A DNA stretch of 49,511 nucleotides from Candidatus Treponema merdequi (lineage in GTDB: Bacteria; Spirochaetota; Spirochaetia; Treponematales; Treponemataceae): assembly GCA_018064525.1 (NCBI GenBank), contig JAGHVB010000046.1, positions 1 to 49,511 on the forward strand, written 5' to 3'. Shown here piece after piece: positions 5,610-49,511 of this stretch (within the stretch, counting starts at the first letter, position 1; each line of letters begins with the position of its first letter). The notes beneath the pieces are model-generated. The model was not told where the DNA came from, did no database searches, and saw only the letters and a program-made list of their open reading frames with translations. A program made the position numbers and the translations under genes.

Positions 5610-5745
5610 AACGATTCTTTACCCCGTCCTCTTTGCCTGAGATATCAGTTTTCTCTGACCAAAAATGGCCTTAAAAAACCTAACCCTTCGGCGTCCCATT
5701 GGAATATGGGAACTCTCCAGAGAATTGCCCTCTTAATACATAAAA
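5610..5745 (-). promoter_or_regulatory. Glycine riboswitch
   Basis: On the minus strand the leader contains the conserved glycine-aptamer blocks in order: CTCTGGAGAGTTCC (5709-5722), GACGCCGAAGGGTTAGG (about 5679-5695), and ATCTCAGGCAAAGAGGACGGGG (about 5622-5643). I can make out one full aptamer, so it is probably a singlet. It controls a glycine/alanine symporter, a known class of target. Confidence 0.92.
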
Positions 5746-5827: not shown

Positions 5828-8263
5828 CTAAAAAACATTCTCAATAACTTCGCGGACATCGCTTACAGGAATAAATTTAATTCCTTTTTTAACGTGTTCA
5901 GGAATCTCATCGAGGTCACGGACATTTGCTTTTGGAATTAAAATTGTTTTTATTCCGTTTCTGCGTGCGGCTACTGTTTTTTCGCGGAGACCACCGATCG
6001 GCAGAACCTGTCCGGTAAGAGAAAGTTCACCAGTCATCGCAAGATTCTTTTTAATCGTCTTGTTTTTCAAAAGCGAGAGGAATGTTGTTGCCATCGTAAT
6101 TCCTGCGCTCGGGCCGTCTTTTGGTGTTGCGCCTTCCGGAATATGAAGATGGATGGAATTTTTTTCAAACCATTCTTCGTTTTTAATTCCGTTTTCTTCA
6201 GCATATTTTTTTACCCAGTTGAACGCAATCTGAGCAGATTCTTTCATTACATCGCCCATCTGACCTGTAAGCTGTAAATCACCTTTTCCAGGAAATGAAA
6301 TCGATTCAAGTAAAAGAGTATCTCCTCCCATGCTTGTCCATGCAAGTCCGATTGCAGTTCCAGGTTTTGAAGCCCGCTTGATTTCTGATTCATCAAAAAC
6401 CGGTTTCCCGAGATATTCTGCAAGGTCTTCCGGTTTTACAATATATTCAAGATCCTGAATGATCTGACCTTCATCAAGTTTTCTCATGATTTTTGTTACA
6501 ATTTTACGGTCAATTTTATCAATACATTTTTCAAAATTTCTGACGCCAGCCTCACGTGCATATTCCTCTGCAATTTTTGAAAGTGCGCTCTGAGTATATT
6601 TAATATTTGATTTTGCAAGTCCGACTTTTTTTAAGTTTTTTGGAACAAGATATTTTTTTGCGATTTCAATTTTTTCAGAATCGATGTAACCGGAAAGCGT
6701 AATCACTTCTGCCCTGTCAAGAAGAGGTCCCGGAATTGAATCTGTCGTATTTGCCGTAAGAATGAAAAGTACATTCGAAACATCAAACGGCAGATCAAGA
6801 TAATTATCACGGAATGTCACATTCTGTTCCGGGTCTAATACTTCAAGCAATGCAGAAGCAGGATCTCCCTGAACTCCAGACCCCATCTTATCAACTTCAT
6901 CAATCATAAATACCGGGGCATTTGATTTTGTAATCTTAAGTCCCTGAATGATTTTTCCTGGCATTGCACCGATGTAAGTTCTTCTATGTCCTTTGATTTC
7001 AGCTTCATCACGCATTCCACCGACAGAAAATCTGTAGAAAGGCTTATTCATCGCATTTGCAATTGATTTTCCGATGCTTGTCTTTCCGACTCCAGGAGGT
7101 CCAACTAAAAGAATGATTGTACCTTTGTTGTCCATTTTATTTTTGCGCACTGCAAGAAATTCCATTATGCGTTTTTTGACATCTTCAAGTCCGTAGTGGT
7201 CATGTTCGAGAGTTTTTTCTGCATCGAGAAGATTATAGTCTTTAAACTCTTCGTTTTTCCATGGAAGATTTGTAACTAGTTCGAGAAAGTTTCTTGTTCC
7301 GATGTATTCAGCAGAGTTTGGATCCATCAGATTGAATTTTGCAAGCTCGTCATCAACGGCTTCTTTAACTTCACCTTCGAAAGCAAGACTTTCAATTTTT
7401 TCTTTGTACTTCTGATAGTCAGTTAAATTACCGTGAGAATCTGTTCCAAGCTCTTCCTGAATTGACTTTAATTCTTCGCGTAAAAAATATTCCCGCTGAT
7501 TTTTTTCAACTCTTTCATTAAGTTCATTCTGAATCTTTTTCTGAATGCGTAAAAGTTCCTGTTCCTTTTTAATAAAAACAAGAACCTGCTCCATCCTCTG
7601 TCTGACATTTATGGTTTCAAGAATACGCTGCTGGTCTTCTTTGTCTACGTTCAGAATTGAAGCAATAAAATCTGCAATTTTTCCAGGCTGGTCAATGTTG
7701 ACCATATTGAGTCTCATTTCTTCTGAGAACATCGGATTGTTGTCAGAAATTTCCTTCATTTCTGAAATGAGTGCACGGGTAAGAGCTTTTACTTCAAAAG
7801 TGGAATCTTCTTCATCATCAAGATATTCTACAGTTGCAAGCATAGGATTGACTTTGCTCAAAACTTTTCTGATTTTGAAACGCTTGATTGTAGAAATAAA
7901 AATATTGATTCCGCCGTCAGGAAGATTTATCTTTTTAATGATTCTTGCAGCCGTACCGATTTCGTGAATATCAGAAATGTTCTGAGCCTCATTTTCGGTA
8001 CGTGTCATGCAAATTCCAAGAAAACCGTCATCTTCAAACGCCTTTTCAACAACCTTGACATCTTCGTTTGAAGAAATCATCAGCGGAGTAAAAACACCCG
8101 GAAAAATCGGGCGTCCCTGAATTGAAATGATATGAAGTTTATTTGGTAAAATATGCTCAACAGGCAGAATTGAATTTGAATCTACCTTTGTCTTTCTTTC
8201 TTTTCCGTCAGAATCAGTAATTACGACTTCAATTTCTGAATTAATGTCTTTTTTATTGCTCAT
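5828..8263 (-). CDS. lon: ATP-dependent protease Lon
   Basis: Cytoplasmic AAA+ serine protease that degrades misfolded and regulatory proteins. It has 811 residues in the usual bacterial order: LON substrate-recognition domain (about 40-240), coiled coil, AAA+ domain with Walker A GPPGVGKT at 388-395 and Walker B VFMIDEVDKMG, then the protease domain. The catalytic dyad is S719 (KDGPSAG) and K762 (GGLREKTVAA), 43 residues apart as in E. coli Lon. The N-terminal 30 residues are a polar extension. No ribosome site precedes the ATG; GTGACT-N17-TATATT ends 6 nt before it. It follows the kinase gene by 54 nt but has its own promoter. Confidence 0.97.
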   Translation of the reverse strand: MSNKKDINSEIEVVITDSDGKERKTKVDSNSILPVEHILPNKLHIISIQGRPIFPGVFTPLMISSNEDVKVVEKAFEDDGFLGICMTRTENEAQNISDIHEIGTAARIIKKINLPDGGINIFISTIKRFKIRKVLSKVNPMLATVEYLDDEEDSTFEVKALTRALISEMKEISDNNPMFSEEMRLNMVNIDQPGKIADFIASILNVDKEDQQRILETINVRQRMEQVLVFIKKEQELLRIQKKIQNELNERVEKNQREYFLREELKSIQEELGTDSHGNLTDYQKYKEKIESLAFEGEVKEAVDDELAKFNLMDPNSAEYIGTRNFLELVTNLPWKNEEFKDYNLLDAEKTLEHDHYGLEDVKKRIMEFLAVRKNKMDNKGTIILLVGPPGVGKTSIGKSIANAMNKPFYRFSVGGMRDEAEIKGHRRTYIGAMPGKIIQGLKITKSNAPVFMIDEVDKMGSGVQGDPASALLEVLDPEQNVTFRDNYLDLPFDVSNVLFILTANTTDSIPGPLLDRAEVITLSGYIDSEKIEIAKKYLVPKNLKKVGLAKSNIKYTQSALSKIAEEYAREAGVRNFEKCIDKIDRKIVTKIMRKLDEGQIIQDLEYIVKPEDLAEYLGKPVFDESEIKRASKPGTAIGLAWTSMGGDTLLLESISFPGKGDLQLTGQMGDVMKESAQIAFNWVKKYAEENGIKNEEWFEKNSIHLHIPEGATPKDGPSAGITMATTFLSLLKNKTIKKNLAMTGELSLTGQVLPIGGLREKTVAARRNGIKTILIPKANVRDLDEIPEHVKKGIKFIPVSDVREVIENVF

Positions 8264-47975: not shown

Positions 47976-49235
47976 TTATTTTTTTCCACGACAGTTTGAA
48001 ACTGTTGTAATGATATATCCTTTTTTCTTAAGTTCCGGATAAATGTCGCGCAATAAATCCGGTAAGAAAGATGCTGACCACACATGGCCGATCATGATTA
48101 CATATCCGTCTTTATTTGCTTTTTCAAGATTCTTTTTAATTTCTGCAAGTGCGTTTTCTCTTGTCTTTTCGTTATCTAAAAATAATCCGTTCCTTTCATA
48201 ATAAGAAAGTCCAAGTGCACTGCTCACAAACGGAACCTGAGTATCTTTGTTTGTTCTCGAATCAAGAAAATACATTCCGTTATCAGATACAAATTTTAAA
48301 ATCACTTCCATCTTCTGAGCATCGGCCGTAATCAAAGATCCTTCATGATTATTCATTCCGCTTACAGGTCCGACTTCTGTTATGTTCTGATACAAAACAG
48401 ATTTAATTTCACTTTCTGTCATTTCAGGTTTTATGGCACCCGGTCCCGGATTGACACTTGTATTGATTGCCTGCATCGGCTGATGCAAAATTACTTCTTT
48501 TCCGCTTGCACGGACTTTCTGTCCTGCTTCTCTGGAATGTGCAAGACCCGGCAATACTGCAACTGTAAGCGGCATATCAAGCTTCAGAAATTTATCAAGC
48601 TGCGAAAGATTCTGCCCGCCATCATCAAGCAAAAATACAACCTGCGCTTTATTTACAGCCGGAACAAAATTAAATTCCTTTGTTTTTGCTTCTTCTGCTT
48701 TTTTTTCTTCTTCTTTTTTCAATTCTTCTCTACGCTTTTTTTCTTCACGTGCCTTTGCCTCTTCATCACGCTTTTCTTTTTCACGCTTAAGCTGTTCCTG
48801 CTTTTCCTTTTCTTCTTTGAGACGCTGTTCTTCTTCCTGCTTTTCTTTCTGTTCTTCCTGCTGTCGTTTTTCTTCGTCGCGTTTCTTCTGGCTGTCTGTT
48901 TTTTTATTTTCTTTTCTGGAATTTTCTTTTGCTGAACTTTTTGAAACAGGCTTTTCTTTCTGAATATTATACTGCTGTTCTATATCTGTTTTTCTCTGAA
49001 CATTATCATTATTTAAAGTTCCATCGGGAATTAAAATAGTTGCAAGAAGCAAGAGAATACAAAAAACAATAATTATTATACAAAGCTTTATTACTTTGTC
49101 AGAATCAAGTTTTACTTTTGGTTTGATTGATTTTTTTTTGAAAAGTCCCTGAGATTTTTTTGCCGGCTTTTTTGATGCAGCTTTCGTTGTTCGTCTTGAT
49201 GTTGATTTTTTAGAACTGCCCTTTTTAGATTCCAA
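47976..49235 (-). CDS. Divergent polysaccharide deacetylase (YibQ-like) with a charged helical stalk
   Basis: A 419-residue inner-membrane protein. A Lys/Ser-rich cytoplasmic tail (1-45) precedes one membrane span (about 48-70). A long Glu/Lys/Arg helix (about 105-190) follows, then the DUF610 domain (about 195-415), with VFLLDDGGQNLSQL, VILHQPMQA, NNHEGS and a C-terminal GHVWS. This is the divergent polysaccharide-deacetylase fold, and several metal positions differ from true deacetylases, so activity is uncertain. The start is a TTG with AGG about 9 nt upstream; no Met codon occurs in the N-terminus. The stalk could reach toward the peptidoglycan. The small-RNA terminator lies just upstream. 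Confidence 0.83.
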   Translation of the reverse strand: MESKKGSSKKSTSRRTTKAASKKPAKKSQGLFKKKSIKPKVKLDSDKVIKLCIIIIVFCILLLLATILIPDGTLNNDNVQRKTDIEQQYNIQKEKPVSKSSAKENSRKENKKTDSQKKRDEEKRQQEEQKEKQEEEQRLKEEKEKQEQLKREKEKRDEEAKAREEKKRREELKKEEEKKAEEAKTKEFNFVPAVNKAQVVFLLDDGGQNLSQLDKFLKLDMPLTVAVLPGLAHSREAGQKVRASGKEVILHQPMQAINTSVNPGPGAIKPEMTESEIKSVLYQNITEVGPVSGMNNHEGSLITADAQKMEVILKFVSDNGMYFLDSRTNKDTQVPFVSSALGLSYYERNGLFLDNEKTRENALAEIKKNLEKANKDGYVIMIGHVWSASFLPDLLRDIYPELKKKGYIITTVSNCRGKK

Positions 49236-49252
49236 AATAAATACCTGCGTTT

Positions 49253-49290
49253 AAAAAAATAAGAGATGAAGGAAACCTTCATCTCTTATT
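49253..49290 (-). terminator. Terminator of the candidate small RNA
   Basis: AATAAGAGATGAAGG (49258-49272) pairs perfectly with CCTTCATCTCTTATT (49276-49290), with further A-T pairs outside and a T run on the minus strand. It separates the small RNA from the deacetylase gene. Confidence 0.9.
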
Positions 49291-49424
49291 TTATTATTTT
49301 ACTCTCTTAATGTCCATAATGCCGTATATATAAAATAATCGGTAATATGCAATTAAAGTCGTTTATAAAATAACTCTCTCCGATCAGGCCTCTCTCCTTG
49401 CCGTACTCTCTCTTATAAACGACA
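49253..49424 (-). ncRNA. Candidate sigma-54-dependent small RNA
   Basis: Predicted start near 49424, 12 nt past the GC of the sigma-54 element. The RNA opens with an 11-bp perfect stem (49413-49423 with 49358-49368) whose 44-base loop, read on the minus strand, holds GAGAGAG three times at an exact 16-base period (plus-strand CTCTCTC at 49374, 49390 and 49406). Two of the copies are preceded by G, giving AAGGAGAG and CGGAGAG. After about 65 AU-rich bases it ends in a strong terminator (49253-49290). No open frame longer than 7 codons is seen. The GGA loops could bind CsrA, or the RNA could pair with CU-rich targets (inference). Confidence 0.6.
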
Positions 49425-49434
49425 CATAAATATA

Positions 49435-49450
49435 TGCAAATTCCGTGCCA
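49435..49450 (-). promoter_or_regulatory. Sigma-54 (-24/-12) promoter
   Basis: On the minus strand TGGCACGGAATTTGCA matches the sigma-54 consensus TGGCACG-N4-TTGCW at every fixed base. GG is at 49448-49449 and GC at 49436-49437. The enhancer region would lie beyond the window edge. Confidence 0.85.
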
Positions 49451-49511
49451 AAAATTGCAATATTACAAAAATAATTAAATAAAAATATCTAACTCCTTAT
49501 AATATAAAGAA

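Follow-up and report, generated by a model that had tools for sequence, protein, structure and literature searches.

Several described systems share features with the locus analysed here. Listeria LhrC is a multi-site antisense RNA with several copies of one short seed, CsrB/RsmZ-type RNAs present repeated G-rich motifs in the loops of a noncoding RNA, and CrcZ and CrcY of Pseudomonas are sigma-54-dependent noncoding RNAs in which short purine motifs are repeated. CrcZ, whose motifs are A-rich, titrates Hfq (PMC5501646). In Borrelia burgdorferi, the RpoN-RpoS cascade places a sigma70-family gene with a regulatory untranslated region behind a sigma-54 promoter; BosR acts post-transcriptionally on the rpoS 5'UTR, with GG residues there being critical (PMC11109971), and Hfq is absent from Borrelia (PMC11607428). 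A further class of small RNAs derives from the 3' untranslated regions of mRNAs. The origin of new small RNAs is mostly unknown, and the present locus bears on that question.

We analysed the entire contig C85 (49,511 nt; hereafter, the window) of a 2.7-Mb Treponema genome with a completeness of 99.8%. It contains what is very probably a noncoding sigma-54 RNA that originated from a sigma-factor operon, the origin being read from the sequence and the transcription predicted. Like CrcZ and CrcY, this RNA would depend on sigma-54 and repeats a short purine motif, but the motif is GAGAG rather than A-rich, Hfq was not found and the origin is different. Like LhrC, it carries several copies of one seed, a purine seed (GAGAG) here and a pyrimidine seed there, and its target is a candidate. 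The intact operons of its relatives resemble the Borrelia cascade, whereas at the window locus, as far as its sequence tells, the sigma frame is gone and the RNA alone has been kept. All elements of the RNA locus lie on the minus strand, and the features are as follows.

49493-49511, no strand assigned: palindrome TTCTTTATATTATAAGGAG upstream of the promoter (consensus TTCCTTATAATATAAGGAA), a presumed target of an enhancer-binding protein
49435-49451 (read 49451-49435), minus: sigma-54 -24/-12 promoter TTGGCACGGAATTTGCA, exact consensus, one of three strict YTGGCAYR-N4-TTGCW sites across the 2.7-Mb genome, conserved in T. porcinum and others
49252-49424, minus: predicted noncoding RNA of ~172 nt, start placed by its spacing from the -12 element, fold z = -5.6
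49358-49423, minus: 11-bp stem with a 44-nt loop, the stem identical in Ca. Treponema scatequi
49406-49412, minus: GAGAGAG copy 1, in the 44-nt loop
49390-49396, minus: GAGAGAG copy 2, in the 44-nt loop
49374-49380, minus: GAGAGAG copy 3, in the 44-nt loop, predicted to form an 11-bp duplex with the rpoN start (-15.9 kcal/mol)
49302-49306, minus: fourth GAGAG, within the N17 spacer of the sigma70-type promoter embedded here, also conserved in G007 and G153
49288-49316 (read 49316-49288), minus: sigma70-type promoter TGGACA-N17-TAAAAT, probably that of the deacetylase gene, running into the 5' arm of the terminator
49257-49291, minus: intrinsic terminator, a hairpin with a T run after it, from sequence and fold prediction
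47976-49235, minus: divergent polysaccharide deacetylase gene (PF04748, Pfam E 1e-58), the conserved downstream neighbour

The initial annotation had reported a perfect -24/-12 element, an 11-bp hairpin enclosing a 44-nt loop, three GAGAGAG copies at a 16-nt period and a strong terminator, with no coding frame; we recovered each element exactly and at the same positions, and no ORF inside the RNA reaches 40 aa. The fourth GAGAG, the upstream palindrome and the sigma70-type promoter of the downstream gene had been missed, and the remains of a sigma-factor operon were not visible to that reading. The promoter has the GG and GC at the fixed spacing expected for sigma-54, and the spacing from its -12 element predicts a start near 49424. 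The stem pairs GTCGTTTATAA (49423-49413) with TTATAAACGAC (49368-49358), and none of 200 shuffled sequences folded as stably as the RNA. GAGAGAG occurs three times on the two strands of the window, always inside the RNA locus, and CTCTCTC occurs there solely as the complement of these repeats. In the 1.1 Mb of the genome that was scanned, clusters of three GAGAG or CTCTC in a span of 70 nt were found at just three places, the RNA locus among them. An Rfam search of the RNA gave no family at or above the gathering threshold, and literature searches returned no report of it. A hidden short ORF at the fourth GAGAG, MDIKRV(K), is kept in G007 and G153; it was rejected, as it lacks a ribosome-binding site and nothing corresponds to it elsewhere. 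Elsewhere in the window, a glycine riboswitch aptamer lies at 5614-5730 on the minus strand (Rfam RF00504, 44 bits).

The genome carries rpoN, the sigma-54 gene, along with three genes that clearly encode sigma-54 activators; this, together with conservation in relatives, backs the proposal of the initial annotation that a sigma-54 promoter drives a noncoding RNA. In the closest relative, Ca. Treponema scatequi (L009, the same contig as G007:C79, which stops at the -12 element), hairpin stem and terminator stem as well as the three repeats and the fourth GAGAG are almost letter-identical, while the stretch from hairpin to terminator has diverged. Treponema was searched for the locus with sequence patterns across the genus and, in about 120 genomes, by inspecting the region ahead of the deacetylase gene. 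Beyond the window genome and G007, a sigma-54 promoter followed by an ORF-less GAGAG RNA occupies the same place in 13 further genomes: G153, T. porcinum (G070), G107, G108, G110, G167, G188, G030 and the five members of group B (G206, G083, G106, G134 and G189). The arrangement is conserved in at least 15 species, upstream of the same deacetylase gene, which itself is present in 186 of 200 genomes of the genus. Many other Treponema genomes have neither promoter nor RNA at this place. In the Treponema JC4/C6A8 group (L013, L014 and L015), the sigma-54 promoter at this place drives a gene for Hsp20, with the deacetylase gene next in order, and GAGAG is absent. In G190 (L193), the position immediately before the deacetylase gene, taken in other species by sigA or the RNA, is occupied by a divergent rpoN (41% identical). 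A likeness of GGAGAGUUUAUCC, found in some relatives, to the 5' end of 16S rRNA was set aside, since there is a mismatch at one base and the sequence is absent from the RNA of the window.

Many relatives, as well as Spirochaetales outside the genus, have at this position the same sigma-54 promoter followed by sigA and then the deacetylase gene. sigA encodes a sigma70-family factor of ~277 aa with Pfam regions 1.2, 2, 3 and 4, and its best NCBIfam matches are RpoD/RpoS-type models, with scores below their cut-offs. At L024, the order is promoter, GAGAG-rich leader, intact sigA, GAGAG-containing 3' end, terminator and deacetylase gene. Its near twin L025 (genome G030) has the same ends and, of the sigA frame, just the last bases ACGCTGACAGCAT; it looks like a recent sigA deletion. 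In G164, region 3 has been deleted from sigA, and the 3' element ACAAGCGGCATTTGAGAGAGGCTATCTTGT is the same as in the ORF-less group B. A protein search detected a sigA orthologue (39-100% identity, E 1e-59 or better) in 9 of the 10 genomes chosen as sigA carriers and a truncated one in G164. None was detected in the 15 ORF-less genomes, in which the best matches were RpoD and another (type-B) sigma factor at 33-37%, the others being more distant. No recognisable sigA codons are left in the window RNA.

At least three changes between these states are required by well-supported branches of the deacetylase tree, and we infer that the direction was loss, given that sigA is present in the outgroups. 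Loss of the sigA frame in the window lineage and at least twice more, with the RNA-only state arising at least three times, is well supported by the sequences. The shared position and promoter, the intermediates L025/G030 and G164, the absence of sigA from 15 genomes, the tree and the upstream palindrome all point to the RNA locus as a derivative of the sigA operon; it shares its promoter, enhancer site and neighbour gene, as well as the 3' element, with the intact operons. In the ancestral operon, the same promoter and enhancer site would have transcribed sigA with GAGAG-containing untranslated regions; the frame would then have been lost while the promoter, the GAGAG-bearing RNA and the terminator were retained, leaving a noncoding RNA of ~170 nt driven by sigma-54 and its activator. 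The RNAs of group B and of G030 correspond to the 3' untranslated region of sigA mRNAs, either truncated or intact, and in this resemble 3'UTR-derived small RNAs, but they would be made from the original promoter after loss of the ORF and not by processing of an mRNA. Since intact, truncated, freshly deleted and RNA-only states coexist within one genus, the conversion of an mRNA into a noncoding RNA can be traced stepwise.

The window palindrome is identical at 16 of 19 positions to that of the sigA operons, a match equalled by none of 200 shuffles. The consensus precedes the promoters of many sigA operons, and likewise those of the window, G030 and group B. Its distance to the -24 element is ~50, 61 or 71 bp, with steps that correspond to one helical turn. 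The sigma-54 promoters tested for Hsp20, type-B sigma and ECF-like genes lacked it, and it could not be recognised in T. porcinum, G107, G108, G110, G167, G188 or G153. Given that the site is common to the sigA operons and the window, the RNA most likely answers to the activator that once controlled sigA. In L069, G110 (L166) and G167 (L160), the sigma-54 promoter is preceded by a different palindrome, AACCGCGGTT, perhaps the site of another regulator.

Downstream, the terminator would stop sigma-54 transcripts and separate the RNA from the deacetylase gene. Judging from positions, the gene's own promoter should escape this terminator: transcripts from the sigma70-type promoter would start inside the 5' arm and so lack part of the hairpin. 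The arrangement T(A/G)GACA-N17-TA(A/G)AAT is also found upstream of the gene in G153, G110, G167, G188, G011, G149, T. porcinum and G108.

GAGAG is the one sequence common to all 15 RNAs. It occurs 58 times, against 6.7 in dinucleotide shuffles (sd 2.6), about 20 sd above expectation, and CTCTC does not occur in them; the RNAs are related and their counts are not independent, although divergence is so deep that little else aligns between groups. The bases of GAGRG are predicted to be unpaired more often than other bases (mean 0.61 versus 0.37). This bias to one strand and the placement in loops point to action at the RNA level. Our preferred reading, a tentative one with somewhat less than even confidence, is a sigma-54 RNA, the remnant of a sigma-factor mRNA, that acts by GAGAG pairing and possibly feeds back on rpoN. 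For the pairing itself, with action in trans presumed, we consider the chances evenly balanced.

The initial annotation had offered, as one option, an antisense RNA against CU-rich sequences, for which the rpoN start of the same genome (contig C82; ATGTGCTATAGTATCAATATGGCTCTCTCATTCTCTCAAGTACAGCGTGTATCACAAAAGCAGTCTCTC) is now a specific candidate. We scanned 922 gene starts (-40 to +80) in 1.1 Mb of the 2.7-Mb genome: 873 have no CTCTC, 48 have one and a single start, that of rpoN, has more, with three. Leu and Ser codons are abundant at this start and favour CUCUC; three or more copies appeared in only ~0.4% of synonymous-codon samples drawn from the genome's own codon use (p ~0.004), a lead that arose from viewing a match list and was not a planned test. 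Repeat 3 is predicted to pair over 11 bp with AUGGCUCUCUC at the rpoN start (-15.9 kcal/mol). By duplex energy, rpoN ranked 14th of 651 for the loop, 4th of 922 for summed repeats and 134th for one repeat, so it is distinguished more by its CUCUC count than by energy; ranking on duplex energy alone yielded GC-rich chance matches and was abandoned. The distant rpoN of G190 contains no CUCUC, and G190 is not among the established RNA carriers. A linkage with hprK/ptsH, expected in G077 and G091, yielded no rpoN there. Exposed GAGAG loops would pair in trans with CUCUC-bearing mRNAs, the rpoN translation start being the best candidate, and an RNA made by sigma-54 would thereby damp sigma-54 synthesis. 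We regard rpoN as a possible but rather doubtful target. The full chain, in which a protein-coding operon became a regulatory RNA several times within one genus and this RNA pairs with the rpoN mRNA start to close a feedback loop, is a little less probable again. If the pairing with rpoN is true, it would represent RNA-based feedback on sigma-54 in spirochaetes without detectable Hfq.

The best-surviving alternative is that an RNA-binding protein reads GAGAG in the untranslated regions of sigA, affecting stability or translation as BosR does on Borrelia rpoS (PMC11109971), and is titrated by the RNA in ORF-less species. Intact sigA mRNAs do carry GAGAG as well, in their 5' leaders and at their 3' ends. 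Moreover, part of the main clade carries an extended form, GAGRG-N0-5-UUUAUC, with 10 copies against 0.0 in shuffles, which goes beyond what simple pairing with CUCUC needs and may be the sign of a protein. The extended form is missing from the window RNA, G007, G153 and group B, however, and a candidate protein was not found, so we consider this explanation unlikely, though still the strongest competitor to GAGAG pairing.

The RNA could also be the decaying untranslated region of a lost gene, transcribed and functionless, as the apparently recent deletion in G030 and the fast divergence between hairpin and terminator might suggest. Such decay is improbable, given that the stem and all repeats are identical in the window genome (G000) and G007 although the spacer diverged, that promoter and repeats were retained after at least three separate losses, and that GAGAG is so strongly enriched. 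Scarcely different in probability, and marginally lower, is the titration of CsrA by loop GGA motifs, the other option of the initial annotation. The genome encodes csrA and fliW, two of the three loop copies read AAGGAGAG and UCGGAGAG, and the csrA ribosome-binding site is itself AAGGAGAG. But, unlike in CsrB/RsmZ-type RNAs, ANGGA is neither a conserved core nor enriched (16 copies in the 15 RNAs against 16.6 in dinucleotide shuffles), which rules out the CsrA motif as the conserved core and does not sustain titration as a common property; GGA is absent from the group-B copies, the L024 terminator loop and half of the window copies (the first and fourth). That a transcription regulator binds the GAGAG copies as DNA sites downstream of the promoter is very improbable: the 16-nt spacing is regular in the window but irregular elsewhere, all copies in the 15 loci share one orientation and they lie in predicted loops. 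Titration of Hfq, with the AG repeat on the distal face of an Hfq as with the A-rich motifs of CrcZ (B. subtilis Hfq reportedly binds an AG-repeat aptamer, for which literature searches found no paper), is nearly refuted and Hfq was rejected as the partner, since none of 39 genomes has an Hfq match above the Pfam cut-off, which a very divergent Hfq could escape, and Borrelia lacks Hfq too.

GAGAG and sigma-54-like elements also occur elsewhere in the same genome. A second leader with three GAGAG, in the form GAGAG..UUUAUC, and a terminator precede an ABC transporter gene (C43:146144-146240; L309, ~6144-6240); it may encode a short leader peptide, MWWE, behind a good ribosome-binding site. On the minus strand of C43 at ~59508 (L304), GGACATCGGAGAGAGTTTATC matches the extended motif of the RNAs of relatives and lies after a 7-bp hairpin and before the gene of a NusG-like small protein. 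At C51:23463 (L095), a sigma-54-like promoter stands directly before a short double-glycine-leader peptide (MEKELNTKELNNVVGGNE...) that resembles a bacteriocin or RiPP precursor.
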